This document shows, in pieces, positions 6,689-43,964 of a DNA stretch of 64,000 nucleotides; within the stretch, counting starts at the first letter, position 1; the number at the start of each line of letters is the position of its first letter. The stretch is taken from NCBI GenBank assembly GCA_018266755.1, contig JAFDZW010000001.1, forward strand, positions 459,635 through 523,634, in the 5' to 3' direction. Source of the stretch: Bacteroidota bacterium. Lineage in GTDB: Bacteria > Bacteroidota > Ignavibacteria > Palsa-1295. The translations under genes were made by a program, and so were the position numbers. A model generated the notes under the pieces. That model worked only from the letters and a program-made list of their open reading frames with translations. It was not told where the DNA came from and ran no database searches.

Positions 6689-6705
6689 TCCCGATCGCAC
6701 GCGAT

Positions 6706-8995: not shown

Positions 8996-9000
8996 AAGTC

Positions 9001-10010: not shown

Positions 10011-10013
10011 CTC

Positions 10014-14251: not shown

Positions 14252-14287
14252 GAATTGTATTATTGAGTTGTTGATAGGTGATACCAA

Positions 14288-15060: not shown

Positions 15061-15090
15061 AAAAAGGCCCGCAGAGATGCGGGCCTTTTT
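15061..15090. terminator. Bidirectional rho-independent terminator
   Basis: AAAAAGGCCCGCA, loop GAGA, TGCGGGCCTTTTT: a strong GC stem flanked by A5 and T5, so it can work in both directions. It overlaps the last two bases of the 15089-15325 gene and ends transcription of the two small minus-strand genes. Confidence 0.85.
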
Positions 15091-15325: not shown

Positions 15326-15333
15326 GGCTGGTC

Positions 15334-15609: not shown

Positions 15610-16256
15610 TATTTTATGGCGTTAGCCTGTTCGTAACTTCTGACACACACAACAAGGTGGGATGCTGTCCGTTCGGGCGAAATGAGAGAAATATCCGGCC
15701 TATAAACTGCTGAAAATTATCATGTTGCCGGACTAATTACATAAAAATAGCAAGTATTAGCAAATACTTAGTACAATCAGGGAAGAAATGACGTATGTTC
15801 GTAGTAATGAATGACGGCACCAATTGCGCCGTGAGTAGAGGTCAGGGAGGAAATGGTCCATCAAAATAACCCCGTGGCAAATCGACTCCCTGATCCTCTA
15901 CCTCGGGCCGAACAGCAATAAGTTAATGACTCGGAGGTGGAGAAATATCAGCAACCGTTCAGTTCTATAACTTAGCACGGCTCTAATTGGAGTGAGCAGT
16001 TCGTAGATGACAATCTCTTCTATATTCTCCGCTTATTTGAGAATTCGTGGAATTTGCATAATGACCCTGCTATCAGACAACTTTCTACTAAGGTCGTTGA
16101 AAATGGCATGTAACTTTTTCTTGGTTGGCGTGTCTTTTGAGATAATGGGAAGCGCGAACTCTCAACGAAATCGATATGGATGCAAGTTCAAAGATGAGAG
16201 TGGTACTTTGTGGATGGTAGGTTGGTTAATTAACACTATTTAGAACGGTGTCTGAG
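15610..16256. other. Long AT-rich intergenic stretch without a credible gene
   Basis: No recognisable gene or strong hairpin. A 78-codon open frame at 16007-16243 has a hydrophobic segment like a signal peptide (NFFLVGVSFEIMGSANSQ), but it is short, has poor initiation signals and no known relatives; it may be a relic of a secreted-protein gene. The region must hold the promoters of the divergent units on either side. Confidence 0.5.
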
Positions 16257-18077: not shown

Positions 18078-18131
18078 AATTGTTTTTTTTGGTCACATTT
18101 CAACTATCCAAATCACTAATCAATTACTGCC

Positions 18132-21100
18132 ATGAAATACTGTAGTTTTTTACTCATCCTTCTTGTCTCCGCGTTTCTGACTTTATCGGCACAAGGCCAG
18201 CCATGCACAGGAGTTACATATTCAACGAACTGCGACAAAAGCATTGAGAGTCCTATCGTTGCCGATACTGTCTTCCCCTATGGTCAGTTCGATGACTATT
18301 TCGTGGGTCCTCTAAACGATGGAGAGCCTGATTACTGTAGATTCCTACAAACATTTTCGGATTTGGGATTCAATTTCATTTATAACTATGAATCGGGAAT
18401 GGGCGATGCACTGATCAAACAGTTCTTCGCGGCGAATCATGGTGATGGTTCGCCGGTCGCTCGCAAAGGTATTCTGAGTGCAGAGCCGATTTTATCCGAG
18501 AAATGGGTAGGCCATTACAACAATGGCGGCTCCATCGGACCAACTGAGTTCAAATACTTCCTCGCATCGAACTGGACCGGTGATGCGGCGTATGACACGA
18601 GATGGAATTGGGCTACAAGGCCAAGTACAAATTCTACACATCCGGACCAACTTGGCCAAGAAGTTTATTTCAAGAAATCAGTAGATGTCATAAGCCCAAG
18701 TGGTAATTTGCTTGAAGACTTACAAACTGATCCGTCGTCAGTTAATGGCTACGGGGATGTTGGAAATCCAAATGGTTACACAACTTCGCTACAGGTTGCT
18801 GGTGGGACCAATACTGCAACCACCAATGTGGTAATCTGCGACTTTGTATTTAGACTCTACGAACCAGATTACCCTTCAATGTCTACAGACGATCAACCTG
18901 CATATCGCGTAGATTATGTCGCAACCTTTGCAGACGGACATTCGAGCACCGTTGCTCAAAGTAATATTACTCCTGAGTATTATTGGCAGTACGTAAATCA
19001 GAAGAATCTACCACCTTCAACAGCCTCGTCATTTGTATGGGGTGCCAATAGTTACCCTCGGAGCGCTGCGGATTTCATCAATACTGAGCAGAACTGTATT
19101 CGATACTTCCCATTGTGGAATAATGTAGACAGAGGGGCGTATGATCCTACGCAATGGAAAAAGTATGCGCTTGTACGGGCCGTAATCGATCTGGGCCAAG
19201 GACAGGGATTTAAAAACGATGCACTTAATCAATTGGCATCCCCTGACAACTTCCATCATATTGTTCATATTGAGTGCAAAGTAGTCCCGATCTCCCCTAA
19301 TGGCATCTTCATCCGAGGTTTGCGTTTCCGTTCACAGATGGGCGATGATCTTCTTCGTGGAAAACTCTCATCCCAACTGCGGTCTGATTTTCAGACCATC
19401 CAACGCAGCTTTCAGGGATATACTTCGCCGGCAGATCACTCTAATATGAATAGAGATGCGAGTTCCGACACGTGGTCCCGATTGCCGGGAATCCAAGGGT
19501 GCAATGAGTGTACGTTACAGACTTGGCCCGCATTAGCATATATTGACCAACAGTTCAAGAAGTTTAGCCGGGGGAAGAGGATATACCCATTCATCGTCGA
19601 CAACTTTGTGTTCTCTCAATTTGACAAATGGCGAGCAGTGTATGAGGATGTGACTGGTGAACTCCCACCTTCACTCATTCCCGAATGTGACCGCACGAAT
19701 GGGACTGCTCCACTTGCAGCCAATGGGACAACCAATGGGTCGCCAAGATTCGAAACGCAAGGATACCCGAAGGACTTGATCCCCAAGAATATTTCCGATG
19801 TTTCTGATTTCACTCTTTTTGGGTTCCCCATTCAGGGGTACGACGTTTATACAAAGCGATGGATTCCGCATTTGGACAACTGTCTAATGATGTCTGGGGA
19901 GGGTGAGAACGCATTCGCCGACCCAGGACACGGCAGACGGGTTGGTACTTGGATTGGCGGTATATGGGAGATATTTAGCTTCAAGAAGTGGCATACTCCA
20001 GTAAAGGACTATGGTACCGTCAATGCTACCACTGGACAAGTAGCATCGAGTTCGCTGAGAGGCAAACTCATGGACTTGATCGTCAATGGTAATACATGTT
20101 GGACTGATCTCCTCACGAAGAATTCGTTCTCACTGAATGATCTGATGAATGACGACCAATGGAAGTCTCCGTCGGCACCCGTTACTGTGACGATCCCGGA
20201 ATCAACTGCGCCCGGAGGTGAATTCACGACGGCAAACCAGTTTGTTCCTCGGGGTTCTTTTGCTGTAACAAATGAATTCAGACAAGTTACCGGTACTGAA
20301 ATTCGGGCAATGGGTTGGGGAACACTGGCAGAAGGTGCAAAAGGTATTGTATGGAATACCTTCTTGGCCCAAAATGGCGAGGAGATCGGAGTTCTAGGTG
20401 GTGGAGCTGCTCACCACTATGATTGGTGGTTCGATAACCTCGGTTGTGATGACATTGCACACCAGTTTGGTGGACCAAATATCTATGCCAGAAATTTGTT
20501 CTGGTTGGGTTCGCAACCAACCGACGGGAAAGGAACAATCCCCGAAGCAATGTATGAACGCTGGGCTATCCAGAAAAAGAATAACGGCCAGTTAGTACAG
20601 GGCCCCGTCTATATTGAACGGGACGCCACAACCCATAAGTTTCCAAGTCTCAATAACACGTTACTTGCTGCAACTGTACATGATATTGATGGTAATACAG
20701 GCTCACAATCGAAAACGCTCGAGGATTGGATGAGTTTTCTATTCGATTATCAAGCCGATCCGATTACTAAGGGAAGTCATACAGATTGTTATTCTAATTA
20801 TAAATTGACAGCGGATGGAGTTGTGGCTGCGTATGTAACGACCCACGATAATCTGTTTCCGAGCAATAAGATCGATGACGGATCTGCCGGAAGCTGGGAA
20901 ATCGTACTTGCTGCGTCACCGGATGAGCCTCGATGGAAAGCAACTTTTACATCAATAGCTTCATGTGGGTCAAACGACGATATTTATTGGCCTAAGTCGA
21001 GATATTCTCATGACTTCATGGCGCTCCCAAAGACATATCTAGGTGCAAGCGACAAGTACGACGGAGTCAAGCGGTTCTCTGACGACATCAGGCCAGTCAT

Positions 21101-24100
21101 GAAATACTTCAAGGGCTTTGAACGTATCAATACGGTCTTGCTTAACAATATGCTGGATGATGACGTGCTCTCGATGCAACAGGGGTTCCCAATCGACCAC
21201 GACAATGTAGTAAGTCGTAAGGTAAATAATCATAAGGACAATAATCCAACTACTTACACGTACACATTTCCCCATACACTTCAACAAGACGGGATTGCCG
21301 GGAAACCGGCCACGGACTCGTATGATAAGAATGCACTCGCGAATCCTGAAATGGGCTATGCAATTGGAGCATTCCGATCTTCCGATCGCAAGGATGCGAG
21401 CGAGATCGTCGATTCGACGAAGTATATTGTTGTAGCAAATAAACGCTCGTGGCCCGTATACTATGAAGGTACTGGCACAAGTAAGACAGTGCAGGATTTT
21501 CGACCGCTATCAAAAGTCGATGTCACTACGGGCACTTCGATAACCCCACTCCCTGAGGACCAACTTCTGGGTCCTGTGGATACTCGACTTTTCTCGTTCC
21601 GGCTCAATCCGACGGCACTCTCAAGCGGCGATCTGACAAATGGGTTTGACTTCAATTATTACAATGTCGCTGACCTTCGAACTGGTCGAAATAAGTTGAT
21701 CAAATTCGGGGAGCGTTATCTGGGGGTTGTTACAAGCCCGTTCATAGATACATTTGCGGTACTTCTGGACCCGGGTGAGGGAACGCTCATGCGAATTTCT
21801 CCGGCGTATGGATACGTACTTGGGAAAGCAAGTGAATTTGGGATGGCATATAACAACGGTCATCGTGTAGCTGAAATCGTTCAGGCTAATGAAGATCATA
21901 CCCCACCACGTCGTATTGTTGTATGGGAGAATAAGGGAAAGATCCTATATAAACTGACGAATCAGCCCATCGAAACTGGTGAAGAGAACTTTTTCCGTGA
22001 TGACGATCAACATCCTTCCTCTCAAGTAACCTTCGACTTGAACCACATTGACGGGAATGCAAATCCCACAATGGACGAGGGACACAACCCGTCCGTTGCA
22101 ACGCGAGGAGATCACATTGCCGTCACTTGGAGTACGTACTACTATAATACTTCGCTTCAGTTGTTCCAAGAAGATGTGTATGCCGTTGAAGGTCAGAAAG
22201 GAACGGACTGGGATCATATTAACTGGAGTATCATTAAGAAAATTAACACGACACCCCTTCTGTACCAGGCCGGGCACATACCTGCTCCTTCTATTACGGC
22301 AACATCCGACGGCTGGCTGTGCGCATATTCAAACCCAAATCAGGGAATAGTAGCAAAAGTCGTCCGATTCAGTGTAACCCCGAATATTCTGACATTCACC
22401 AATGGTACGAATCCTCCGTCGGTAATCTTTGCTGAGGATCAACCTCGGCGATTACTCTCTGTATTCCCATCGGTTGCTTCAATTGACGAGTCCGATCTCA
22501 TCCCGTCATCTCCGGAGAGATTGCATCTTGTGTGGGAAGAACAGTTGAACGACGGGACCAGCCAGATATACTACCGTAGCCTACTCTATACAGCCGGTAT
22601 CTCGGGACATATTGATTTGGATAACACGGCTGGAAACTCATCCATCGAACGGGTTAGCAAACTCGCACCATCGTGCGTTCATCACCATCCCAATGTAGCA
22701 GTGTCGAAGGACTGCAAGACATTGGATGGTCATCAACGCGAACCCATCGTGACTTGGGAAATGACAAAGCATGAATGTAATGCAGCTACTCAACAATATG
22801 TAGATAACGTCTACGTAATGCTCAGAGAACGACTTCAAGGCGGAGGATGGACGTCATTTACATCATTCTACCCTAAAGCAGGGAACTTGCCATTGCCGCT
22901 CGTACACTCAACGACAACTCGGACGGGCGCAGCATTTTGCGATATCGATATCAATAGTCCGAATGCCCCACTTGGCAACGGTTTTCACAGCCTCGTATTT
23001 CAAGATACATTTGTTGAGCGGATCCACATCATGCGGGATAAATATGATCATGTGAAAGGTGTTGGTCAAAATGAGGGGTGGCTCCATACTCGCCTCTTGG
23101 ATCATGGAAGATATCCTAACGTAGTGATGCCATACCAACGGACCACTGAGGAACAAGCCACCACATTTACATATCGTGGTATTGATGCTGATCCCGATAA
23201 TCTCTATGCTGTCGATATTACCGCTCGTAAAAGTGGCATTGAACAAGCCGAGAAGACCAGCACAGTTCAATCCTTTAATGTTCTACAAAAGAATGCGAAA
23301 TGCGAGGACGGATTAATCTATACAATCGGCGATGGAGGGGCAGGATGCGATTGGTGTACGTTCATTCCGCCTGATACCACTGACTACCCCAGTGACCCTC
23401 CGTACGGACACAAAGGAATCGCTACTGTCGGTTGGGCGATGTATGACATTGTACACTCGAATCAACATGTTTATGACAGTTACGACAGCACTGTCGTCCG
23501 TTGGCCGACTACGGAGGATTCGGTGCGAACGAATTATTTCCATGTCGATTCAACGACTCGTCTCTTTATGGATCGCACACTTGTCACAACAGATTCTACT
23601 GCGCTCGACTCATTGTTTGACTCCCCCGACACGTCTCGGTATGTTGACATTGAGCTGGTGTTGAAGGATTCGGCTACGCACGCAATGGTCCAGAGTATTG
23701 AGAGAGTTCATATTACTCCCTTGAATACAACAGCAATTGCAACCAATTCTTCAGCACCGTGCAATGGCATGGTCGTAAATATGTTGCCTCCGCCACCGCC
23801 TCCGATTCCACCGCCGGGACCCGGTAGGCATATCAATATGCAATTGCTAACGCCACCTTCCGGTGCCGGTTACCTGACCTTGATTATCAAGAAGGACTCC
23901 GTAACTTCGGCCGCACTTGTGCAACGGCAAGGGGTCGGTACGCACTTTGATGCTTCCGGCTACATTCCTCAACTTCCTGACTCCTCAACGTCGTTCAAAA
24001 GGATTGAGCCAAAGGGTAGTAATACAGTCTCTCGTACGGATAGTATAGTAATCAGTGTTAATCCGAATCCTTTCCATAGGAAGACAACCGTACATATTCA

Positions 24101-24299
24101 AGTGCCCAAAAACGTGCCGATGCAGGTCACACTCTATGATGCGTTAGGTCGTATGGTGCGGACATATTTTGAAGGAGTGACAGAACGATCAGCCTACGAT
24201 ATCGATGTGTTGGGTGAAAGTATGGCTACCGGACGGTACTATTTGAGAGTGCAAACAACGAATTATGTCAAGACCGGCGTACTACTATTAAATAAATGA
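18132..24299 (+). CDS. Giant (2055-residue) T9SS secreted protein, TIM-barrel-like N-half and propeller-like C-half
   Basis: A signal peptide (MKYCSFLLILLVSAFLTLSA) opens the protein and a type A sorting domain closes it (VNPNPFHRKTTVHIQVPK, LYDALGRMVRTYFEG, MATGRYYLRVQTT). In the N-half a stretch near residue 715 (EFRQVTGTEIRAMGWGTLAE, GAKGIVWNTFLAQNG) resembles glycosidase-like TIM barrels. After about residue 1240 there is FGMAYNNGHRVAEIV, also present in the 1744-residue protein at 34255-39489, and then propeller-like blades with HNPSVATRGDHIAVTWS and HPNVAVSK. A proline run (PPPPPPIPPPGPG) precedes the C-terminal domain. The protein is rich in Ser, Thr and Asn and less GC-rich than its neighbours. 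Role unknown: a surface adhesin or polysaccharide-acting enzyme is a guess from architecture. Confidence 0.85.
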   Translation: MKYCSFLLILLVSAFLTLSAQGQPCTGVTYSTNCDKSIESPIVADTVFPYGQFDDYFVGPLNDGEPDYCRFLQTFSDLGFNFIYNYESGMGDALIKQFFAANHGDGSPVARKGILSAEPILSEKWVGHYNNGGSIGPTEFKYFLASNWTGDAAYDTRWNWATRPSTNSTHPDQLGQEVYFKKSVDVISPSGNLLEDLQTDPSSVNGYGDVGNPNGYTTSLQVAGGTNTATTNVVICDFVFRLYEPDYPSMSTDDQPAYRVDYVATFADGHSSTVAQSNITPEYYWQYVNQKNLPPSTASSFVWGANSYPRSAADFINTEQNCIRYFPLWNNVDRGAYDPTQWKKYALVRAVIDLGQGQGFKNDALNQLASPDNFHHIVHIECKVVPISPNGIFIRGLRFRSQMGDDLLRGKLSSQLRSDFQTIQRSFQGYTSPADHSNMNRDASSDTWSRLPGIQGCNECTLQTWPALAYIDQQFKKFSRGKRIYPFIVDNFVFSQFDKWRAVYEDVTGELPPSLIPECDRTNGTAPLAANGTTNGSPRFETQGYPKDLIPKNISDVSDFTLFGFPIQGYDVYTKRWIPHLDNCLMMSGEGENAFADPGHGRRVGTWIGGIWEIFSFKKWHTPVKDYGTVNATTGQVASSSLRGKLMDLIVNGNTCWTDLLTKNSFSLNDLMNDDQWKSPSAPVTVTIPESTAPGGEFTTANQFVPRGSFAVTNEFRQVTGTEIRAMGWGTLAEGAKGIVWNTFLAQNGEEIGVLGGGAAHHYDWWFDNLGCDDIAHQFGGPNIYARNLFWLGSQPTDGKGTIPEAMYERWAIQKKNNGQLVQGPVYIERDATTHKFPSLNNTLLAATVHDIDGNTGSQSKTLEDWMSFLFDYQADPITKGSHTDCYSNYKLTADGVVAAYVTTHDNLFPSNKIDDGSAGSWEIVLAASPDEPRWKATFTSIASCGSNDDIYWPKSRYSHDFMALPKTYLGASDKYDGVKRFSDDIRPVMKYFKGFERINTVLLNNMLDDDVLSMQQGFPIDHDNVVSRKVNNHKDNNPTTYTYTFPHTLQQDGIAGKPATDSYDKNALANPEMGYAIGAFRSSDRKDASEIVDSTKYIVVANKRSWPVYYEGTGTSKTVQDFRPLSKVDVTTGTSITPLPEDQLLGPVDTRLFSFRLNPTALSSGDLTNGFDFNYYNVADLRTGRNKLIKFGERYLGVVTSPFIDTFAVLLDPGEGTLMRISPAYGYVLGKASEFGMAYNNGHRVAEIVQANEDHTPPRRIVVWENKGKILYKLTNQPIETGEENFFRDDDQHPSSQVTFDLNHIDGNANPTMDEGHNPSVATRGDHIAVTWSTYYYNTSLQLFQEDVYAVEGQKGTDWDHINWSIIKKINTTPLLYQAGHIPAPSITATSDGWLCAYSNPNQGIVAKVVRFSVTPNILTFTNGTNPPSVIFAEDQPRRLLSVFPSVASIDESDLIPSSPERLHLVWEEQLNDGTSQIYYRSLLYTAGISGHIDLDNTAGNSSIERVSKLAPSCVHHHPNVAVSKDCKTLDGHQREPIVTWEMTKHECNAATQQYVDNVYVMLRERLQGGGWTSFTSFYPKAGNLPLPLVHSTTTRTGAAFCDIDINSPNAPLGNGFHSLVFQDTFVERIHIMRDKYDHVKGVGQNEGWLHTRLLDHGRYPNVVMPYQRTTEEQATTFTYRGIDADPDNLYAVDITARKSGIEQAEKTSTVQSFNVLQKNAKCEDGLIYTIGDGGAGCDWCTFIPPDTTDYPSDPPYGHKGIATVGWAMYDIVHSNQHVYDSYDSTVVRWPTTEDSVRTNYFHVDSTTRLFMDRTLVTTDSTALDSLFDSPDTSRYVDIELVLKDSATHAMVQSIERVHITPLNTTAIATNSSAPCNGMVVNMLPPPPPPIPPPGPGRHINMQLLTPPSGAGYLTLIIKKDSVTSAALVQRQGVGTHFDASGYIPQLPDSSTSFKRIEPKGSNTVSRTDSIVISVNPNPFHRKTTVHIQVPKNVPMQVTLYDALGRMVRTYFEGVTERSAYDIDVLGESMATGRYYLRVQTTNYVKTGVLLLNK

Positions 24300-24383
24300 T
24301 CTCAGTAGTCATAACCCGATTGTTTAGTCGTACGATCTACCAATAACAGACCAAATTCGGTAAACAAGAAAAACAATCATTAC

Positions 24384-24424
24384 AGAACAGCCCGGAATGG
24401 TTTCTTCCATTCTGGGCTGTTCTA
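24384..24424. terminator. Strong hairpin terminator between convergent genes
   Basis: AGAACAGCCCGGAATGG (24384-24400) pairs with CCATTCTGGGCTGTTCT (24408-24424) with one mismatch around a short loop. It lies between the giant secreted protein gene (plus strand) and the transposase gene (minus strand), where it would end transcription from both sides. Confidence 0.8.
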
Positions 24425-24507
24425 ATATTATCCATCATGTACAAGTTGTCATGAGCAATTGGAACGCCAATATCAGACTTTGGAGGTACAGTATACTTAC
24501 TCTCCAT

Positions 24508-26067
24508 TCAAGGTACATTTACATAGTCAGTTTCAATACTCATTGAAGTTGGCATCTTAGGTTCTATTGCAAGTAAGAGTTCTGTCGTTACCTGCTTGAT
24601 TTCCTTGGCCGATCGCTTCTTCGATACAAACGCACTCACTTCATCGGGCCACTCCTCGGTCATGGTCCCAAGGTTCTGCTGACCTCTCGTGCGTTCCTCG
24701 ATCTCCCGGTTGAGCCTGATCCGCAATGCCATCCCTTCGAGATAGTCGTCTTCGAACTCCTTCGGTGACTCTGTCTGGGTCTGTCCTCGCTTGCGTACCG
24801 GTACCGGCTCCAGTAACACCCGCTTCCCACCGATCATTGTATAGTGGTTTCCGCCCACTGTAACGATCTCGATCCTCGTCCCGAGGTTGATCTCGACCGG
24901 TACCTTGCAGTACACCCCGTCGCTGACGCGTACCTGCCGCCGGTTCACCTTCCGCCAGACCGAGCTGCTGAACAGTAACTCCGCCTCCTTCGGGGGATAC
25001 GTCGCCCCTGTGAGTGCAGGATGAAAGATCTCCCATCGTTTCTCATCCTTGCGCTCCGGATGGCGGGACGTATTGACTTGTATGAGCCACCGCTGTAATA
25101 ACCGGTTGATCTCCCTGAGTGTGAAGATCGTCCCTCGCTTGTAGGAGAGGAATAGCTCCGTCTCGAAATCCTCTTTAATGTAACGGATCATTCGTTCGAC
25201 CTTCCCACGAGCCTGTTTATTCGATCCCGGCTGCCGATTCCCCTCGGTATCGCGGATCGTACTCCCAAGGACATGACCGATCCCGAGTTTGCGTATCCCT
25301 CCCCGAAACGAGGCATTGCGAAAGGCAGAGCCTCGGTCGGTATAGAGCGTTCGTGGCTGTCCCTGGAGTAAGGGAATCGGGACGATCTCACCTGTATCGG
25401 TATCCACCCGTGTTTTCTCTTTCGTGGTCTGGAGGAGGAAATGCCGTGCTAACGACGCACTTTCCCCCTTGACTAGGTAATAGCGGGCATAGGCGACTCT
25501 CGACGAGTCGTCTATCGAGACGGCGATCCAGACCCGCTCCTGTCTGGCATTGGCTCCTTTTGCCGTTGCGGTCCGTAGAAACGATACCCCGTCTTTCCTG
25601 ATATGCTCCAGATAGACACTTCTGGTAAAATCCATCTGTATCATCGCCAGCGGCTCCGTCCGTTCGAAGCGGGTAAAGTAGGACTGTGATTTGTTTTTGA
25701 GCCGTTGACGACGGATCGAGGCTGATATCTGGTGGTAGGTGATCTCCTCGGGAAGTTGTTTCTGGTCCTTGAGGGCCCGGATCGCTACCGAGGTGGATGC
25801 CATCCGTGTATTGGAGGCATGTTCGATCTGATAGTCCCAGACGAGCTTTCCTAACGTATTGAAATAGTCGATCCGGGTCTGTTCCTTCCCACTCAACGAA
25901 CGGGGACGGACTTTCAGGTTCAGTACCCGCATGAGGGCTCCGTAGGTATAGCCGGAAGTCTTACAACCCCGCTTGATGACTCGTTTGCGCTCTGGGACGG
26001 TTGCTGCTCCCAGATAGGCGGTTCGGATACTTTCCAGTAAGATGGGATCAATGGTTCGGCGTGGCAT
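24508..26067 (-). CDS. DDE transposase of the Mu A/TnsB type
   Basis: 519 residues from ATG 26067; a GTG at 26124 would add 19. An N-terminal DNA-binding region precedes a retroviral-integrase-like catalytic core. The catalytic triad is readable as Asp146 (LAMIQMDFTRSVY), Asp244 (TLYTDRGSAFRN) and Glu291 (ARGKVERMIRY). After the core comes a basic beta-barrel-like domain (ERKDEKRWEIFHPALTG, then VSDGVYCKVPVEINLGTRIE and VTVGGNHYTMIGGKRVLLEP), the Mu transposase C-terminal domain. A charged tail may contact the partner protein. Such enzymes cut and join the ends of transposable phages or Tn7-like elements. The gene overlaps the end of the upstream ATPase-like gene by 20 bp. Transposon ends were not identified. 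Confidence 0.88.
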   Translation of the reverse strand: MPRRTIDPILLESIRTAYLGAATVPERKRVIKRGCKTSGYTYGALMRVLNLKVRPRSLSGKEQTRIDYFNTLGKLVWDYQIEHASNTRMASTSVAIRALKDQKQLPEEITYHQISASIRRQRLKNKSQSYFTRFERTEPLAMIQMDFTRSVYLEHIRKDGVSFLRTATAKGANARQERVWIAVSIDDSSRVAYARYYLVKGESASLARHFLLQTTKEKTRVDTDTGEIVPIPLLQGQPRTLYTDRGSAFRNASFRGGIRKLGIGHVLGSTIRDTEGNRQPGSNKQARGKVERMIRYIKEDFETELFLSYKRGTIFTLREINRLLQRWLIQVNTSRHPERKDEKRWEIFHPALTGATYPPKEAELLFSSSVWRKVNRRQVRVSDGVYCKVPVEINLGTRIEIVTVGGNHYTMIGGKRVLLEPVPVRKRGQTQTESPKEFEDDYLEGMALRIRLNREIEERTRGQQNLGTMTEEWPDEVSAFVSKKRSAKEIKQVTTELLLAIEPKMPTSMSIETDYVNVP

Positions 26068-26839
26068 AGGTACGTGTTCTTCTGGAGGTGGTTCGTTCGT
26101 GCTGCCATTGGGTATAGACCTCACTCGTGATCTGTTCGAGTCCGAGTCGTCTGGTGAAGCGTTGGAGCTCCTTCACGGTGGTGACGATCTGGGTCGAGGA
26201 TGGAAGCTGTTCGAGCGCACGGATGACTGAGGGGTCGAAGACTCCGCTCGACCCCGGGGCGGCGGACTCGATAATCGCAGTTACTTCACCCGTTGTCAGT
26301 GGGCTCGTCACCTCCAGTACGATGGAGGTGGTCTGGAGGGAGGCGACCGGTGTACCCCGTTCGGTGATACAGAGGATCGAGGGGATACCGAGCGGCTGAC
26401 GGTCGATCGTATGCTCGGAGAGGATCGAAAGGATCTTGTATGCCTTGATTCTCAGTATCTCCGTATGCTCGAACAAAAAGACCGGGATGACCCGGTCGTG
26501 ATGGAGTTCTTTGAGGAGTTTCCCGAAGTAGAACTGTACATGTTGCAGGAATGAGACCGGAGGCCATCCGAACTCCTGGAGGACCTGCCGCATGACGTTC
26601 TCGGGGGTCATCTTATCGCTGACCGGAAAGGTGATGTTCGGCAGGATATGGAGGGTATGATCTTCGCTGTGGGTTGGTTGTACGATATTCTTCCCTCGTT
26701 CGACCCTGATCAATGCATCGAGGAGTGAACGGATGGCGGCGGAGCGGCCTCGGAGTTCGATGTTCTGGCGGTTCTTCAGGGCTGTTCGGATCTCCGAGGA
26801 GAGTAACGGGTAGCCCGGTGGTTGTAGTGGCTTCATCAT
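26048..26839 (-). CDS. MuB/TnsC/ExeA-like transposition partner lacking a P-loop
   Basis: 263 residues from ATG 26839 (TTG 26902 would add 21). It precedes and overlaps the transposase gene, which suggests it is the target-choosing ATPase partner. The C-terminal two thirds resemble ExeA/MuB-type AAA domains: VIPVFLFEHTEILRIKAYKI in the Walker B/sensor position, IPSILCITERG, LTTGEVTAIIESAAPGSSGV, FDPSVIRALEQLPSSTQIVT. No GxxxxGK[ST] motif is present; the corresponding place reads IELRGRSAAIRSLLDAL. The Walker B acidic pair is reduced to FEHTE. It therefore probably does not hydrolyse ATP, or does so in an unusual way. Remote or degenerate family membership is inferred; the gene order B before A is the reverse of phage Mu. 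Confidence 0.6.
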   Translation of the reverse strand: MMKPLQPPGYPLLSSEIRTALKNRQNIELRGRSAAIRSLLDALIRVERGKNIVQPTHSEDHTLHILPNITFPVSDKMTPENVMRQVLQEFGWPPVSFLQHVQFYFGKLLKELHHDRVIPVFLFEHTEILRIKAYKILSILSEHTIDRQPLGIPSILCITERGTPVASLQTTSIVLEVTSPLTTGEVTAIIESAAPGSSGVFDPSVIRALEQLPSSTQIVTTVKELQRFTRRLGLEQITSEVYTQWQHERTTSRRTRTYATPNH

Positions 26840-26982
26840 AGCAGGTTGTGTAGTGAAAACGGCGATCCAGTGTCCGAATCGCCCAAATATGGGCACACAC
26901 AAGCGCTTTTGAGACCTTTGGTTCGGGAGAAATAGTACCTATGCACCAAAGGGGAATTTGGGGTAGTTCCGCAGAACAATCG

Positions 26983-27414
26983 CTATTGAACAAAACGGTC
27001 GGTATGGTTGGTATGGATGTACTCCGGGCCATACCAGATTTTCGTAACGAGCCACTGTTCATAGAATAAGAGCCATAGCCCGATCCATGGAATGATATAA
27101 TCCCGATAGAAGAATGGGGTCGAAGGGTGTATCGCTCGGGGTTGGTAGACACAGAGTGACCCGTCTGCTTTATACACGTGTTTAGACTTCTTGTGAATTG
27201 CAGGAGAGAGCACCACAATGCGCGGTGGCACTCCCTCCCGAATCTCGACTTTGATCTTATACACCGGCGAATGTAGAGATGGCTGTATTTCCCCTTTAAG
27301 GATGTATCTGCCATTCCTGCGTTGCATAGTAAACCCTTGATACTCCCGCACCACGAGCAGAAGATCGAGGTACAAATTATTTTTTGGTGTCGGAATCGCC
27401 ATATTGTAATACAT
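26983..27414 (-). CDS. E2-like (ubiquitin-conjugating-fold) protein of a type II-short CBASS operon
   Basis: 143 residues from ATG 27414; ATG 27402 is also possible. The sequence follows the prokaryotic E2 pattern seen in CBASS operons: strands IKVEIREGVPPRIVVLSP, then KSKHVYKADGSLCVYQPRAIHP with a candidate catalytic cysteine (about residue 88) in the DGSLC motif, and a tryptophan-rich C-terminal helix (IIPWIGLWLLFYEQWLVTKIW). In type II-short CBASS a lone E2-like protein without E1 or JAB partners modifies or primes the CD-NTase. The gene overlaps the 3' end of the CD-NTase gene by 38 bp on the same strand, which supports co-translation. A candidate active-site cysteine is visible, but the identification rests on motif and context. 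Confidence 0.78.
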   Translation of the reverse strand: MYYNMAIPTPKNNLYLDLLLVVREYQGFTMQRRNGRYILKGEIQPSLHSPVYKIKVEIREGVPPRIVVLSPAIHKKSKHVYKADGSLCVYQPRAIHPSTPFFYRDYIIPWIGLWLLFYEQWLVTKIWYGPEYIHTNHTDRFVQ

Positions 27415-28426
27415 GTGGGATAGCTCGTCCTGTACCGCCAATAGCGATCACACCGGCGGACGAAATTGTTAGTGCCTTCCGACTTGCTGCTTCTGCAAAT
27501 TCTTTGGCCTTCTCACCTAGCCCATGTTTCTTTTTCGGGAATGTATCGATGAACAGGTCGTCACCATTCCAAATATCGATCGTCTCCTGCTCGCCACGAC
27601 ACAACAGTGCGCGCTCCGCAGTCGTGAGTGCATTGTTCAGACGGGACTTGAACTCCCGATAATCAGACATAGACCATGACCGTGAAATGACTTCGCGCTC
27701 ATATAATTCTTCATCGATAGAAGGGTTCGATAGCTCCGGCACGTTGTCATGTTCATCAAGGAATGCACAGATCTTACGGAGCGTATCGACAAATGCCTCG
27801 TTGAGCGAATCGGAAAAAGCCGGGATATGCATCCCAACGAGCGTTAAAAGAATAATGGACTTCGGAGACCCTTCATCGCCGTAGCGCAAGTTTCGCCACC
27901 ATTTGAAGAGACGGACAACGCCATAGAAATACCCGCCGGAATACTTCTGACGCTCGCGGCAATACTCGATCAACCCCTTCGGATGTGACAGGTGCCAGTC
28001 GTTCGCGACTTCAATCGGATCGCTGTTCTCTGACAATCGATTGGCCGGTGTGATATCGAGATGAAACTCGTCGGCATAATCGAGTCGTACGCAGTGCTTT
28101 TTCTGGATGATTTTGTCCTTGTACGTACCATGTGTTGACAAAACCGCTGCGATAGATGCAATCACATCCTCGCCGGCATCCTTCATCGATTCCAAATCCA
28201 GAACGATAACAACGTCGACGTCGAATGACCCATCGTTTTGTGGTTTAACCGCAGTATCGGATGCATAGGAACCTTGAAGGAATGTATATGGATTGAGAGC
28301 CGAAATCGCTTCCTGGCCTTCAAGCCAGTCCCGCACCGAATTGTGTGCCGACATGATCTTCTGTACTCGCGTATCGTTGAGCGAGATGTTGTCTTTGAAT
28401 TCTTCGAATGAGTCCTTTAGTACCAT
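27377..28426 (-). CDS. CBASS CD-NTase (cGAS/DncV-like nucleotidyltransferase)
   Basis: 349 residues. CD-NTases make cyclic oligonucleotide signals on phage infection. The nucleotidyltransferase core is complete: FLQGSYASDTAVKP with Gly52-Ser53, then the metal-binding Asp69-x-Asp71 in GSFDVDVVIVLD, and the third aspartate at 124 in EFHLDITP. The helical C-terminal half (YFYGVVRLFKWWRNL, PKSIILLTLVGMHIP) resembles the SMODS-type substrate-binding domain. Start ATG 28426 is preceded by AAGGAG at good spacing. It lies 13 bp after the patatin gene and overlaps the E2-like gene. The C-terminus reads HVLQYGDSDTKK rather than ending in the small residue typical of E2-modified CD-NTases, which is worth noting. 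Product nucleotide cannot be told from sequence. Confidence 0.93.
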   Translation of the reverse strand: MVLKDSFEEFKDNISLNDTRVQKIMSAHNSVRDWLEGQEAISALNPYTFLQGSYASDTAVKPQNDGSFDVDVVIVLDLESMKDAGEDVIASIAAVLSTHGTYKDKIIQKKHCVRLDYADEFHLDITPANRLSENSDPIEVANDWHLSHPKGLIEYCRERQKYSGGYFYGVVRLFKWWRNLRYGDEGSPKSIILLTLVGMHIPAFSDSLNEAFVDTLRKICAFLDEHDNVPELSNPSIDEELYEREVISRSWSMSDYREFKSRLNNALTTAERALLCRGEQETIDIWNGDDLFIDTFPKKKHGLGEKAKEFAEAASRKALTISSAGVIAIGGTGRAIPHVLQYGDSDTKK

Positions 28427-28439
28427 GTGTATTATCTCC

Positions 28440-29372
28440 TTACCGATTTGGCGTTATGAAAAAACGTCTCTGTGTGTCGGTTGCGGTTTTCCGATATGCT
28501 GCCTCTGCATACTCAAGATACCGACCGATGTGCTTCGTTTGGTCGAGTTTGAAGTCTGTCGGGAGCACGGGATCAACGCGGAAGTATTGCGTTGGGCCGA
28601 GGAGATATTGTGCCGTAAAATCATACCCCTGCGACTGCGCAAGAAATGTCAGGTCGATTAATCGTGTCCGCCACCCCGCGATACCGGAGAAGAGATTTCC
28701 AATGCGGCGTTCGTTAAATTTTGTGTTGCCGGTTCCTACGGACAATACCTCAATCTCTTCGATACCATACCCCATACGAATCGCCTCGGATATTCCAATC
28801 AGCGACGGGTTGTTCGCCCACAGACCACCATCGACATGCCGTCCGACACCAGGAATGCGGTGGGTTGGGAAATACGTCGGAGCTGCCGACGTCGACATCG
28901 CAACGTCATACATACTTCTCAAGTAGTCCCGTTTATAGGGGCTCGCTTCGTCATATACGTGGTCTCTGGTGTGTCGGGTCTTAAAGACAGTCGTTTGCCC
29001 GTCTGTAATATTGATCGACGGGATACACAGTCGGACCAATGAATCTCCGAGAATTCGTTGCTTGAAGACACCACGCAAAGCCTGTGAAAGTGGCGCGCTT
29101 GAGTGTTTCGAGAATAAAAGTGGAAATTGACTGATGCGAAAACGTCCGCCCGGACGAAAAATTTTCGGCCCTGCGTCACAGTACATCTTCACCACCTCGG
29201 CCATAGGAATTCCCGCGCCTATTGCCAATGCAATAATCCCTCCGGTAGAAGTACCGCAGACAAGGTCGAAATACGTATGGATCGCCGTCCCGAGCTCATC
29301 TTCGACAAGTTGCAGGAATTTGGCCGGGATGAGGCCGCGTATGCCGCCGCCATCAATGGTCAGTATTTTCAT
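28440..29372 (-). CDS. capV: CBASS patatin-like phospholipase effector (CapV-like)
   Basis: 310 residues from ATG 29372, which has an AAAGGA ribosome-binding site; an in-frame start at 29444 is less likely. It has all patatin motifs: the oxyanion hole DGGGIRG (7-13), the nucleophile Ser42 in CGTSTGG, and the catalytic Asp181 in VDGGLWANNP. The closing segment has EIEVLSVGTGNTKF. CapV-type enzymes are activated by the cyclic nucleotide made by the neighbouring CD-NTase and destroy the inner membrane, killing the infected cell. It is the first gene of the three-gene CBASS operon, followed after 13 bp by the CD-NTase. It is transcribed divergently from the sigma-factor/metallopeptidase operon, with which it shares a 206-bp control region. 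Confidence 0.93.
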   Translation of the reverse strand: MKILTIDGGGIRGLIPAKFLQLVEDELGTAIHTYFDLVCGTSTGGIIALAIGAGIPMAEVVKMYCDAGPKIFRPGGRFRISQFPLLFSKHSSAPLSQALRGVFKQRILGDSLVRLCIPSINITDGQTTVFKTRHTRDHVYDEASPYKRDYLRSMYDVAMSTSAAPTYFPTHRIPGVGRHVDGGLWANNPSLIGISEAIRMGYGIEEIEVLSVGTGNTKFNERRIGNLFSGIAGWRTRLIDLTFLAQSQGYDFTAQYLLGPTQYFRVDPVLPTDFKLDQTKHIGRYLEYAEAAYRKTATDTQRRFFITPNR

Positions 29373-29511
29373 ATCCAGTTTTTCCTTTATTTTCCCGTGG
29401 GTAGGTGCCCAAGATTCACTGAGATAATATACGCAAAATTGCAACGCAAAGTAATTTGTACGTGTATGTACTCGTGATCACCTCAAGTGTCTATGGTTGT
29501 AACGACCGATT

Positions 29512-29532
29512 TTTTACAGGTCACTTGTAAAA
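29512..29532. promoter_or_regulatory. Inverted repeat in the divergent CBASS/sigma-factor control region
   Basis: TTTTACA (29512-29518) and TGTAAAA (29526-29532) form a perfect 7-bp inverted repeat with a 7-base spacer, 47 bp upstream of the sigma-factor-like gene and 140 bp upstream of capV. The symmetry and position suggest a binding site for a dimeric regulator that controls one or both operons. No protein has been assigned to it; the XRE protein at 32399 seems to have different sites. Confidence 0.4.
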
Positions 29533-29578
29533 TAATGCAGTTCGACGCCATCTATGTATAGATTTAGATCGGAGGAAT

Positions 29579-30187
29579 ATGGATTCTGTACCACCGGGCA
29601 TTGATTGGAGTAGTCTGTATCATGAACTGCTTGCGGCAGCTCATGTGATGATACGAATGAAAGCATGGGCTCGAGGACATAATACAGACGCACTTCTCAT
29701 GGGACAACAAGCCGATGATTTCGTCCAAGAAGCGATCACGAACTATCTGGAAAATCAGGATAAATTCGATCCGACAAAAGGTAGTTTGAAAAACTATCTG
29801 ATAAAATGTGTACTCCGGACGGTTGTTACCGGGAATGCCCGAAGAAAGGAAAATGTGACTAGTGAAGTTGCATCGTATGCCGTCTCCGATGGAATGGATG
29901 GCGAAGAGGTCCTTCGTAAAGAGGTCGAACCGTTTGTAAATGCGTATTTTGATGAAGAAATCGATTTTTCGACCATCCAAAACTATGTTAAGAAACAAGT
30001 TAACGGCGACGAAAACCTCGTGAATATTTTTCTGGGTCTGTGCGAAGGACTTCCACCTCGTGATATTCAGGCGATGTTCGAGTTATCCGAACAATCATAC
30101 CACAACGACCATCGTCGGTTGCAAACCGTACTCAGACATACTGTTACCGAGTTCAAACTTACATCACCAGTTTCAACACGCAAATGA
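29579..30187 (+). CDS. Sigma-70-family (ECF-like) RNA polymerase sigma factor
   Basis: 202 residues with a strong ribosome-binding site (GGAGGAAT). Region 2 is visible at about 35-100: QQADDFVQEAITNYLENQDK, then FDPTKGSLKNYLIKCVLRTV and VTGNARRKENV. Region 4 appears at about 145-190: LVNIFLGLCEGLPPRDIQAM, then FELSEQSYHNDHRRLQTVLR, a helix-turn-helix that would read -35 promoter elements. The linker between them is long for an ECF factor. The next gene overlaps by ATGA and encodes an unknown protein, followed by an ImmA/IrrE peptidase. The layout of sigma factor, possible anti-sigma or adaptor and protease, divergent from CBASS, suggests inducible control of the defence operon; this is inference from position. 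Confidence 0.8.
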   Translation: MDSVPPGIDWSSLYHELLAAAHVMIRMKAWARGHNTDALLMGQQADDFVQEAITNYLENQDKFDPTKGSLKNYLIKCVLRTVVTGNARRKENVTSEVASYAVSDGMDGEEVLRKEVEPFVNAYFDEEIDFSTIQNYVKKQVNGDENLVNIFLGLCEGLPPRDIQAMFELSEQSYHNDHRRLQTVLRHTVTEFKLTSPVSTRK

Positions 30188-30621
30188 ACGCACGTCAGGA
30201 TAGATCTGAATTTATCAATCTGATCGTCGCACAGATTGAACACGTTACGTCCGATAAGGCTCATGCGGATGAGTATCTTCGTGAGGCCGGTCTTGACCCG
30301 GATGCAATGGCTGCCGAGGGAATAAAACAGATACGGAAACGGATGCTCCTTGCTTCTAAGGCCCGAACTCTCGGTGCAATGGATGCAGTAGAACATGCAA
30401 AACAACGTGCCATCGAATATGTCGATCGGCTGTTGCAGACAGTAGATTTCTCCTTTGATACTTTTCTACAGAACGAACGACCGCGCATGAGCTTTCGAGG
30501 TATAGAATCGCTTGATCCGTCTCAAATGCGTGATATAATGATACAGCACTTTACCCTTAAGTTTTCCGATTCGTCAGACGCTGATGACCTCTCAAGTCCC
30601 TCTCAATCTAACACTCGCTGA
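30184..30621 (+). CDS. Unknown helical protein between sigma factor and metallopeptidase
   Basis: 145 residues, no family recognised. It is predicted to be mostly alpha-helical and charged: SEFINLIVAQIEHVTSDKA, HADEYLREAGLDPDAMAAEG, IKQIRKRMLLASKARTLGAM, DAVEHAKQRAIEYVDRLLQT. The C-terminus is acidic and serine-rich (FSDSSDADDLSSPSQSNTR), likely disordered, and a plausible exposed protease site. The start codon overlaps the sigma-factor stop (ATGA) and its own 3' end overlaps the metallopeptidase gene by 38 bp, so the three are translated in tight coupling. By analogy with other ImmA/IrrE partners it could be the protein cleaved by the peptidase or an anti-sigma factor. That is a hypothesis only. 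Confidence 0.7.
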   Translation: MNARQDRSEFINLIVAQIEHVTSDKAHADEYLREAGLDPDAMAAEGIKQIRKRMLLASKARTLGAMDAVEHAKQRAIEYVDRLLQTVDFSFDTFLQNERPRMSFRGIESLDPSQMRDIMIQHFTLKFSDSSDADDLSSPSQSNTR

Positions 30622-31414
30622 AGTTCGTGCTCGAACAGTCCTCGAAGAATGTGGACTAGATTGTCCTACAGAACTGCCGTTGGAGGATATAGTGCTCGGA
30701 AGAGGCGCGTTCTTTCAGGAGGAGACACTTCAAGGCAAAGATGGACAAATCATTACGGTTGGCGACCGATCGGTTATCACCGTACGGCCGGACCTTACAC
30801 CCGTCGGGAGAAGACGATTTACGATAGCGCACGAACTAGGTCACTATGAACTTCACCGGAATCTCCTGCCCGTGTTCTCGGATTCGGCAGACTCGCTCTT
30901 ACAGTGGTATCAGGGAAATACCCATGAAAGAGAGGCTAATTGCTTCGCCGCAGAGTTTTTAATGCCGTCAGAACTATTCAGAGCTGAAGCACAACGGGCC
31001 TGTGGTACCGACCGTCGTAAGATACGCGAGGAAGGAATTGATCTTCCTGTCGTGATCGATGCCCTGACAGCGACCTTCCGGGTAAGCCAATCAGCGGCCA
31101 TGTTACGGTATGTAACCCACGGAAATCATCCGGTGATGGCTGTCTACTGCAAGGACAATCAAATCGCGTGGTTCAAAAAGTCCGACGACTTCCCATACTA
31201 TCTTCGTGGGGTTTGGATAACACCTCCCCATGAAACGATTGCATCTGAGGCGTTCTTAACAGGATCTGCTCCACCGAAGGATCGTCGAAAGCAGGTTGTC
31301 CCCAAAAGTGCATGGTTCTTCTCCAATGGCTGGGATAATGACAATGAATTTTTTGAGTACTGTGTGTATGCCAACAAATATGGTTACACGCTGAGTTTGA
31401 TCTGGGAACGATAG
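30584..31414 (+). CDS. ImmA/IrrE-family metallopeptidase
   Basis: 276 residues. The zinc-binding HEXXH helix is FTIAHELGHYELHR with His83, Glu84 and His87, and the downstream third ligand sits in HEREANCFAAEFLMPSEL (Glu117). A C-terminal extension of about 130 residues (VMAVYCKDNQIAWFKKSD, then WFFSNGWDNDNEFFEYCVYA) is a possible sensor domain. Enzymes of this family cleave transcription regulators in response to DNA damage or phage signals (ImmA of ICEBs1, IrrE of Deinococcus, CapP of CBASS). Its presence opposite a CBASS operon is therefore suggestive. The start at 30584 overlaps the preceding gene by 38 bp; no competing ATG is better placed. Confidence 0.9.
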   Translation: MTSQVPLNLTLAEVRARTVLEECGLDCPTELPLEDIVLGRGAFFQEETLQGKDGQIITVGDRSVITVRPDLTPVGRRRFTIAHELGHYELHRNLLPVFSDSADSLLQWYQGNTHEREANCFAAEFLMPSELFRAEAQRACGTDRRKIREEGIDLPVVIDALTATFRVSQSAAMLRYVTHGNHPVMAVYCKDNQIAWFKKSDDFPYYLRGVWITPPHETIASEAFLTGSAPPKDRRKQVVPKSAWFFSNGWDNDNEFFEYCVYANKYGYTLSLIWER

Positions 31415-31446
31415 CATCGAATAGCATACTGAACGATAGGCAGTGT

Positions 31447-32145
31447 ATGGACAAATCTTATCCGAAATATCTCGAAGCGAGACGAATTCTCGGAATAATA
31501 ACAAGTGGGTTGGTGACTGAGATCGATGCGATAACGATTTCCTCTAAGTCTCCAATGGTATATGCGAGTTGTATGGAGGTAACCAAATATAGGCTCGTAG
31601 AACTCACCGAGGACGCACTCGACCGCTGGGAGCACGGGAAATACCTCTCTTGCTGCATCCTCGGCAGATCAATCTTCGAGACAGTCTTAAACCTTGAATG
31701 GATCAATTATCAAATACAGGACTTCCTCGATGGGAAGCTGTCGCCGGAAGAGATCCACAAAAAGCTAATGCTTGCCACGCATGCCAGCCGGATGGAGGAT
31801 TCGCCGTTGACGTCGGTCAATATCATGTCGATCATTCAGATGATCGATAAGCGAATGTCGAACGTTGCTGGACACGGAATAACCACGAATGCGCGTGTCT
31901 ACGGATGGTTTTCTGGGTTCGCACATCCAAATGCCGATGGTGCTTTTCTGCTCTATGCAAAGATCAACAAGAATTCCCTTACAATCGACCTTTCCGGGAC
32001 AATGCATCCGATACCACCGACAGTAGCTATTGATTTCATCCGATTAAGTCTATCGCTGTTCGAATTAGCATATTCGAATTATGCATTATTATTTCCAGCC
32101 TTTGTCCAAAAAAGTGATGAGCTATACGATCACGATGAGGGGTAG
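31447..32145 (+). CDS. Unknown protein downstream of the metallopeptidase
   Basis: 232 residues. A conserved-looking helix carries an RSxxE pattern (CCILGRSIFETVLNLEWINY), reminiscent of HEPN-like or DUF5677-type helical proteins, but I cannot assign a family with confidence. A second helical block contains ARVYGWFSGFAHPNADGAFL, followed by FIRLSLSLFELAYSNYALLF near the end. There is no signal peptide or clear membrane segment. It starts 32 bp after the metallopeptidase stop on the same strand and could be the fourth gene of that operon. If it is HEPN-like, it might be an RNase-type toxin or effector; this needs structural comparison. Confidence 0.6.
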   Translation: MDKSYPKYLEARRILGIITSGLVTEIDAITISSKSPMVYASCMEVTKYRLVELTEDALDRWEHGKYLSCCILGRSIFETVLNLEWINYQIQDFLDGKLSPEEIHKKLMLATHASRMEDSPLTSVNIMSIIQMIDKRMSNVAGHGITTNARVYGWFSGFAHPNADGAFLLYAKINKNSLTIDLSGTMHPIPPTVAIDFIRLSLSLFELAYSNYALLFPAFVQKSDELYDHDEG

Positions 32146-32398
32146 AACTGCACGACAGCCACTACAACCTTGCACCCAGTTACATGCAAACCACTCTGTC
32201 ATATATCGTCTGACAGCCAAGTAGTAAGCGTGTCAGAATATTACAGGTCGGCGGGTGAAAAAAGGATAGTTCACACTACTCATCCTCAATAAAAAAACTG
32301 AAAACATTACAGTGCACAGAACATTATCGCGGCCAGTTGCCTCGAGAATCTCGATCCGAACAGTGGGTTCGGGAAGGTGGGACTGTACATGATATAGG

Positions 32399-32656
32399 TT
32401 ACCCCTCGCGCAGAATACGCTCGATCTCGGTCGGGGTCTTGCGGTAAGCTCCTTCGACAAAGAAATAGTGTGGTTTCACCTTGAGCGCTTTGGCTATATC
32501 GAAGAGCTTCTCGACCGTAACACGGGTTTCTTCACGCTCGATCTCTCCGATATAATTACCGGACGATCCGCACTCCTCGCCAAGGCGCGCTTGCGTCCAG
32601 CGTTTCTTACTCCGGAATCCCCGGATATTATCTCCTACGATTGAAGCGATCCTCAT
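32399..32656 (-). CDS. XRE-family helix-turn-helix transcription regulator
   Basis: 85 residues, a single Xre/Cro-CI domain: IRGFRSKKRWTQARLGEECG (helices 1-2), SSGNYIGEIEREETRVTVEK (recognition helix and turn), LFDIAKALKVKPHYFF. The short C-terminal tail (TPTEIERILREG) is unlike the sensor domains of large phage repressors. The ATG at 32656 lies inside a CGGG-CCCG palindrome and has no Shine-Dalgarno sequence, so translation may be leaderless or weak. A TATAAT string on the same strand is 28 bases upstream. A second palindrome lies about 100 bp further upstream. The protein probably represses itself and perhaps the secreted-protein genes read in the other direction. Confidence 0.85.
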   Translation of the reverse strand: MRIASIVGDNIRGFRSKKRWTQARLGEECGSSGNYIGEIEREETRVTVEKLFDIAKALKVKPHYFFVEGAYRKTPTEIERILREG

Positions 32657-32675
32657 CGGGCACTTTTTACCCGTA
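32656..32675. promoter_or_regulatory. Candidate operator 1 of the XRE regulator
   Basis: CGGGCACTTTTTACCCG is an imperfect palindrome (arms CGGG and CCCG, spacer 9) that overlaps the start codon of the XRE gene. Binding here would block its own expression. Confidence 0.5.
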
Positions 32676-32753
32676 GACGAGGATTATATTACCCGTCATG
32701 ACGTGTATTCTCACGCTATGGCTGGCAACATCCGCTCGAATCCCGAGCGCGTC

Positions 32754-32775
32754 GACGGGCACATTTTAACCCGTC
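32754..32775. promoter_or_regulatory. Candidate operator 2 of the XRE regulator
   Basis: GACGGG-CACATTTTAA-CCCGTC: perfect 6-bp arms with a 10-base spacer whose centre (CACATTTTAA) closely resembles that of operator 1 (CACTTTTTA). The similar core in two sites on either side of a divergent promoter region supports a common binding protein. A half-site ACCCGTC also occurs at 32691-32697. Confidence 0.55.
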
Positions 32776-32897
32776 CTCTGTTATCAACGGAACTACAGGG
32801 CATCGATTTGTACCCTGACAACATTGAATCTCCCCCCGCCGCTTATCACAGTTGAGGGGTTTATTAATTACGGGATTGGACTCCCTTTACATTATCG

Positions 32898-43952: not shown

Positions 43953-43964
43953 TGATTGTTTTGT

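Follow-up and report, generated by a model that had tools for sequence, protein, structure and literature searches.

A Mu-like transposase gene preceded by a probable pseudo-AAA+ partner that lacks a Walker A motif, in the genome of a probable Kapaibacterium relative

Introduction

Can a transposase of the Mu class be served by a partner protein that has lost its ATP-binding site? The question is raised by two overlapping genes on the minus strand of a 64,000-nucleotide stretch of a Bacteroidota genome (contig JAFDZW010000001.1, positions 459,635 to 523,634; the whole of this stretch is called the window below) of 3.55 Mb. The first gene encodes a 263-residue protein, here called the partner, and the second a DDE transposase. 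Tn7 TnsB/TnsC and Tn5053-type TniA/TniB are transposon pairs of a transposase and an AAA+ protein, and the window pair resembles these and IS21 IstA/IstB in joining a transposase to what looks like a dedicated AAA+ partner. An earlier reading of the DNA (the original prediction) proposed a Mu/Tn7-like transposase behind an ATPase-like gene without a P-loop.

The need for ATP binding and hydrolysis by MuB, TnsC and IstB, in activation as opposed to target choice and immunity, has been studied through laboratory mutants. Transposition continues, to varying degrees, with IstB deficient in ATPase activity, in agreement with reports on MuB and TnsC mutants (PMC11208146). Among the titles and abstract openings listed for literature on Walker motif loss in MuB and TnsC, on gene order, on CBASS with Mu-like elements, on transposable satellites and on Mu-like cargo, a set in which subscription papers are mostly not included, none mentions a P-loop-less partner.

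We examined the pair, its relatives and its surroundings. In our reading, to which we give a probability of roughly 0.55, the pair is a Mu-like transposition module whose partner is a pseudo-AAA+ protein helping the transposase without ATP cycling.

Results

Three gene pairs with the partner first

The partner open reading frame (ORF) runs from its ATG over positions 26048–26839 (minus strand) and is followed by an intact transposase gene at 24508–26124 (minus strand; GTG start at 26124, 538 residues), which has an internal ATG at 26067. Read from that ATG, the transposase gene shares 20 bp (26048–26067) with the end of the partner gene, as the original prediction had it, and the same 20 bp are shared in a second copy of the pair. 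This copy lies on another contig of the same genome (C7, positions 771–3132), with a partner 81% and a transposase 79% identical to those of the window. Of 196 other relatives searched, one, a genome from the same family (G005), has a third pair; its partner is 25% and its transposase 31% identical to the window proteins (about 25–32%), and its genes lie 9 bp apart without overlap. The order partner then transposase holds in all three pairs.

The assignment of the transposase to the Mu/Tn7-like group was borne out. It matches the PHROGs family phrog_310 ('transposase') at E 5.9e-19 and scores 29.4 bits against Pfam rve, just below the cut-off of 32.6; residues D165, D263 and E310 fall on columns invariant in the three copies and also in five wider relatives, as expected of a DDE triad. 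By its sequence it appears to be an ordinary DDE enzyme of the Mu/Tn7 class.

Between the window and C7 copies, the ratio of nonsynonymous to synonymous substitution rates (dN/dS) is 0.19 for the transposase when its first 26 codons are left out (0.19–0.20) and 0.22 for the partner outside the overlap. Ratios near 0.2 for both genes indicate purifying selection, so that a partner without a nucleotide site is being maintained; together with the 79–81% identity between the two copies they make a chance origin of the pair unlikely. Within the partner the ratio is 0.13 over codons 60–180, 0.35 over codons 180–237, and 0.34 in the 48 codons that hold the former P-loop.

The partner lacks the canonical nucleotide site

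In hhalign alignments the residues ELRGRSAAIRS (26726–26758, minus strand) stand at the Walker A loop and PVFLFEHTEIL (26453–26485, minus strand) at Walker B, with the Asp-Glu pair replaced by Glu-His. The P-loop position reads GRSAAIR in both the window and C7 partners, where isoleucine and arginine align at the P-loop lysine and serine/threonine, and FGKPNGKT in the G005 partner, which keeps GKT but lacks a first glycine at the canonical distance and is one residue short of a Walker A motif. The Walker B Asp-Glu position is Glu-His in the window, Glu-His in C7 and Asp-Asn in G005. The P-loop patterns [AG]x4GK[ST], Gx3GK[ST] and x5GK[ST] are absent from the three coding-strand frames of the partner gene and its 200 upstream bp, in the window and in C7 alike, and the predicted lack of a Walker A motif is thus confirmed.

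Removal of the P-loop by a frameshift, which the original prediction had named as a refutation, or by an assembly error, is most improbable: no coding-strand frame of either copy hides a P-loop, and both copies, some 20% diverged, carry the same residues. We accordingly rejected a frameshift origin.

The G005 residues also bear on whether the partner binds nucleotide through a non-canonical loop, the system then working like MuB or TnsC with an altered P-loop. The near-complete FGKPNGKT and the Asp-Asn at Walker B speak for this; isoleucine and arginine in place of the P-loop lysine and serine/threonine, and Glu-His in place of the Walker B Asp-Glu, in both the window and C7 speak against it, and we regard it as improbable.

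We also looked for a canonical ATPase displaced from its usual place. Among 87 stop-to-stop frames of at least 120 residues from the three loci (window 12.4–33.1 kb, C7 1–16000, G005 1–15000), none matched the MuB profile at E≤1. A Walker-A-like match in a 123-residue frame of the G005 locus was taken as chance. A search of the window's own genome with AAA_22 gave 45 matches at E≤0.01, and it is possible that an ATPase encoded elsewhere in that genome acts in trans.

Ancestry of the partner

Profile-profile comparison points to a remote relation of the partner to P-loop ATPases. The three partners aligned by hhalign with seven P-loop ATPases encoded beside transposases at a score of 41.9 (E 5e-5, 217 columns, probability 67%), and with a five-sequence set that omits the L037 ATPase, itself found with the partner profile, at 34.6 (E 7e-4, probability 27%); the two alignments span 217–219 columns. 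Controls scored lower: 15.7–17.9 for three reversed comparisons, 24.3 for the highest among 60 shuffles of the columns in the five-sequence profile, and 15.3 for the transposase profile. The alignment places ELRGRSA on the P-loop and LFEHTEI on Walker B. Run against 938 ORFs of the survey loci (self excluded), the partner profile matched two MuB-like ones best (E 8e-5, from L037, and 0.038), and the 30 MuB-like ORFs ranked above the other 908 (rank-sum p 5e-7, obtained with related sequences that are not independent).

Structural comparison pointed weakly the same way for the window partner. The 50 Foldseek matches listed for its AlphaFold model all belong to AAA+ proteins or to entries whose titles indicate complexes with AAA+ subunits; the best has E 6e-4, and three of the matches listed reach E≤0.001. 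No entry titled MuB or TnsC stands among the matches listed. The lid region, residues 178–250, superimposes on RuvB with a Z value of 8.4 (2.7 Å over 71 residues), which a widespread arrangement could also yield, and the comparison barely probes the P-loop core. For the model of the G005 partner (pLDDT, the predicted local distance difference test, 50), the best Foldseek match is an origin-recognition-complex chain at E 0.02, and the twelfth is a chain of a TniQ–TnsC complex entry at E 0.21.

Several results weigh against our reading. The best Pfam match of all three partners is AAA_22, below the cut-off in each case (E 0.12, 0.016 and 0.029). Scored the other way round, with the MuB profile, the partners reach only 0.7–4.4 bits, and at E≤1 that profile missed them in their own loci. 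The hhalign probabilities of 67% and 27% count as remote homology. The AlphaFold model of the window partner, built from two sequences, has a pLDDT of 56 with a disordered P-loop region, its template modelling scores by query length are 0.22–0.30 for the matches listed, and the G005 model has no Foldseek match at E≤0.001. Finally, the pairs found number three in all. The window partner has no convincing family in the databases searched (best PHROGs E 0.079; no PADLOC match at 0.01; no NCBIfam match at 1), and the partner profile matches no sequence of a solved structure up to E 10.

Support for the predicted ATPase likeness comes from hhalign (E 5e-5) and not from the Pfam cut-off or the MuB profile, and the candidate homologues with a P-loop are remote, the closer G005 partner itself being degenerate. 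The partner looks like a remote relative of the AAA+ target selectors of the MuB, TnsC, TniB and IstB type.

The remoteness of this support is one reason to consider that the partner does not activate the transposase and select targets but regulates or inhibits the enzyme, or serves as a DNA-binding adaptor with a different origin; its place ahead of the transposase, an overlap that could couple translation, and the lost nucleotide site fit such a role too. We think it unlikely, since a separate repressor-like helix-turn-helix (HTH) gene already precedes the pair in both copies and most of the partner's length, the lid region included, aligns with activator ATPases.

Gene order in relatives of the transposase

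With an alignment of five transposase sequences we collected 27 relatives from viral contigs. An ORF matching the MuB profile lies downstream of the transposase in 26 of them, with a complete Walker A motif in 25; the exceptions are L055, whose MuB-like ORF is cut by the contig end, and L056, whose contig ends within the transposase. Upstream, on the transposase strand and within 3.5 kb, none of the 27 loci showed an ORF matching the MuB or the partner profile, as against a partner upstream in three of three pairs here; the contig offers no sequence on that side for L071 and under 3.5 kb for L062, L063 and L076. In L069 two upstream ORFs have Walker-A-like matches and no profile match. Outside this set, L018, L020, L037, L039, L021 and L022 also carry a MuB-like ATPase with Walker A downstream; in L023 no ATPase was seen downstream, where the sequence ends 471 bases later. 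On plasmids, three relatives of the transposase each adjoin a gene annotated as an AAA or ExeA-type ATPase, which, unlike the window partner, follows the transposase and carries a P-loop. The order of partner and transposase is thus reversed relative to these relatives, as had been claimed from comparison with Mu.

The nearest known systems are the Mu- and B3-type transposable phages (MuA/MuB; TnpA/TnpB), which likewise combine a DDE transposase, an adjoining partner gene and a nearby HTH repressor-like gene. The surroundings of the G005 pair, moreover, resemble a prophage and include an S24 repressor and a Mu Gam-like gene. The pairs described here differ in that the partner comes first, not second, and has lost the P-loop and Walker B. 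In one published survey (PMC8705779), no proteins besides TnpA and the ATPase TnpB were common to all 47 transposable-phage genera compared; the window copy, by contrast, has a TnpB-like partner without a P-loop and, among the ORFs scanned at 12.4–33 kb, no recognised head or tail modules. Compared with the ATPases MuB, TnsC and IstB, the window partner shares the place beside a DDE transposase and lacks both Walker A and the Walker B Asp-Glu.

Two further features of the G005 region (L011) were noted. Its contig opens with the C-terminus of a large terminase (21–143), which shares 55% identity over 40 residues with the large terminase of the window and lies directly ahead of the Mu-like early region. 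A 374-residue ORF at 9279–10403 contains a long run of Cys-Ser-x-Cys-type repeats (CSSCSYCSYC...).

Distribution

Whole-genome searches, with counts that include the window's own genome and genome sets that overlap, found the partner in 2/197, 1/395 and 4/391 genomes (the last at E≤0.01) and the transposase in 2/197, 5/395 and 2/391. The four genomes for the partner are those of the two known pairs, G598, where a MuB-like P-loop ATPase lies directly behind a transposase, and G615; the new matches are weak. The G615 ORF resembles a phosphoserine phosphatase, and we took this match as chance. The pair was not found in the single genome of the same genus searched (93% complete), and its distribution is patchy (2/197 relatives, own genome included). 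A search of genome contigs for homologues returned the G005 record only. Scans of viral contigs gave no match for the partner and transposase queries, the G270 transposase, the window terminase or the gene upstream of the pair in G005; in tblastn at 0.01, phages and plasmids gave no match for the window partner, nor phages for that of G005.

A module shared by the two copies and the segment within it

Collinear DNA between the window and C7, as seen by blastn, includes the pair (24569–26927, 80%) and two short blocks, 32320–32399 (75%) and 33016–33055, the latter in a flanking gene (88%). The block at 32320–32399 runs up to an XRE/HTH_3 repressor-like gene of 85 residues (32399–32656, minus strand). 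Its C7 counterpart (350–577) lies directly before the partner gene; the two HTH genes occupy the same place and are 37% identical over 73 residues. The pair and the HTH gene form a module common to both copies. An imperfect palindrome, ACCCGTCATGACGTGT, lies 35–50 bp upstream of the window HTH gene (32691–32706), and another, CGACTCATGAGTCG, lies 37–50 bp upstream of that of C7; both are centred on TCATGA and are possible operators.

The homologous blocks end at 664 and resume at 678 in C7, 13 bp apart, and are 5.4 kb apart in the window, so the window gained, or C7 lost, a 5.4-kb segment (26928–32319, without counterpart in C7) on the stretch from HTH gene to partner. The segment encodes a type II-short cyclic-oligonucleotide-based antiphage signalling system (CBASS), with three genes in one minus-strand operon: an E2-like protein (26983–27441; PADLOC E2, 6.9e-25), a CD-NTase cyclase (27377–28426; PADLOC 3.1e-62, SMODS 1.3e-22) and a patatin-like phospholipase effector (28440–29444; PADLOC 3.4e-90), which we take to be CapV-like. 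Divergent from these, on the plus strand, are genes for a sigma-70-like regulator (29579–30187; PF04542 2.8e-6, phrog_1740 1.3e-7), a 145-residue protein of no convincing family (30184–30621), a CapP-like M78 peptidase (30584–31414; PADLOC capP 6.4e-57) and a 232-residue protein with a weak DUF5677 match (31447–32145; PF18928 3.3e-5, below cut-off).

The CD-NTase, E2-like protein, phospholipase and CapP-like peptidase recall type II-short CBASS with CapP-type control. This system differs in lying between the HTH and transposition genes and in having the sigma-70-like gene at the position expected of CapH; control of CBASS by CapH and CapP is described in a published account (PMC13373217). The sigma-70-like and 145-residue genes precede the peptidase gene (29579–31414), and no CapH-like repressor was recognised among them; a switch of sigma factor, anti-sigma factor and protease is conceivable here.

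The right-hand block, terminase genes and element ends

A second region conserved between the copies lies to the right of the module (15004–15914, minus strand; C7 14279–15194; 70% identity over 945 columns), with the same content in both: a structured noncoding stretch, two small genes and two hairpins. The small genes, neither with a family, encode 91 residues (15334–15609, minus strand; 61% identical in C7 over 88 residues) and 78 residues (15089–15325, minus strand; 47% over 73). The structured stretch (15780–15914, minus strand, z -3.4; C7 14279–14424, z -2.6) folds as a long stem, one base pair of which has changed in a compensatory manner between the copies (GUAGAGG/CCUCUAC versus GCAGAGG/CCUCUGC); in the window it has no Rfam match at the gathering score. 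Next come, on the minus strand, genes for a small terminase subunit-like protein (Terminase_5; 14288–14743; PF06056 2.2e-8, also PHROGs) and a large terminase subunit (12668–14287; phrog_38 1.6e-45), neither matched in C7 1–20000. These were the only phage particle genes recognised among the ORFs scanned at 12.4–33 kb, where no capsid or tail gene was seen.

Between the HTH gene and a flanking secreted-protein gene, a 62-bp box (32830–32891) is 81% identical in C7 and is a candidate left end. With shared blocks at 15004–32891 and on into the flanking gene, and terminase genes reaching 12668, the original estimate of an element at 12.5–32.8 kb was a fair guess. The TG...CA ends that it suggested looking for were not found in the regions searched: no inverted match between the candidate left end and the regions tried exceeded shuffles, which likewise counts against a transposition module, local alignment having set the left region against three regions of the window; in C7, too, the left region did no better than shuffles against the right region and the 3' region of the transposase. 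Nor was an empty site found from which target duplications could be read. A search with the right flank gave matches in all seven family genomes; in the two regions read (18–19 kb) two right-flank genes stay side by side, and none of the tested left-flank genes is present.

Large proteins with a secretion-type C-terminal sorting domain are encoded between or beside the blocks. That of 2055 residues in the window (below the cut-off, E 4.7e-5) and that of 2130 residues in C7 show no more than a distant relationship. At the end of contig C2, which stops there, lies a related gene for a secreted protein, with the conserved box absent. The ends of C7 (L006 1–144) and C2 (L034 6234–6371) share the 5' part of such a gene, 86% identical over 101 bases, which suggests a repeated gene family that broke the assembly.

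The want of inverted ends bears on whether the module has lost its mobility and is what remains, dead or domesticated, of a Mu-like prophage within a defence island. C7 carries a fragment of a transposase 3' end (11619–11858), 81% identical in DNA to positions 2883–3092 of the same locus (L006), which appears to be a remnant of another copy. This fragment, a tally of only two copies, and terminase subunits as the sole particle genes at 12.4–33 kb are what a remnant would leave. Against it, both genes are open in three loci with dN/dS near 0.2 between two, the distribution among relatives is patchy, with none in the same-genus genome, and the two copies share the module while differing in content between its parts. 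On balance we find it rather doubtful that the module is immobile, and it may be mobile at present.

Genomic setting

The GC content is 0.57–0.59 over the first 4.5 kb of the window and 0.43–0.57 from about 4.5 to 46.5 kb. Type I restriction-modification genes occupy 5126–12320; HsdM and HsdS flank a Shedu SduA gene, and an Xre/MbcA-type antitoxin gene and a 149-residue ORF precede HsdR. SngA, SngB and SngC homologues (PADLOC) at 39640–46172 form a further defence system within the low-GC stretch. Because that stretch contains both these homologues and the restriction system with SduA, the surroundings of the element look like a defence island.

Discussion

We propose that the pair is the transposition module of a Mu-like element of the Kapaibacteria, with a partner probably descended from the MuB, TnsC and IstB class of AAA+ target selectors and transposase activators. 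Its nucleotide site would have decayed, Walker A and B being gone in two copies and half gone in the third. Such a pseudo-AAA+ protein would probably still bind the transposase and perhaps target DNA, so that target capture would no longer depend on ATP loading or hydrolysis: the activating contact would be kept, and ATP-controlled loading and release given up. Placing the partner first with a 20-bp overlap may couple translation and so link the amounts made of the two proteins; the HTH protein may keep the module silent.

Weak or absent target immunity is predicted. Without MuB, Mu loses cis-immunity and still samples the whole genome in a hop, as one study reports (PMC7350765).

A wider proposal, which we advance with considerable doubt, is that these pairs represent a lineage of transposable elements whose target selector is a pseudo-AAA+ protein working without ATP, and in which defence systems such as CBASS are exchangeable cargo between the repressor and the transposition genes; the elements might be satellites of transposable phages. 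The idea of satellites is based on the presence of a repressor, a transposition module and terminase subunits and on the lack of recognised capsid and tail genes.

If our reading is right, the natural partner without an ATP site, its half-degraded G005 relative and the relatives with a P-loop would make the steps served by ATP separable in evolved proteins, and a transposase pair of small size with no need for ATP cycling could be simpler to handle in vitro. The copy with CBASS, for its part, is a case of a defence system placed between the genes of a Mu-like transposition module.

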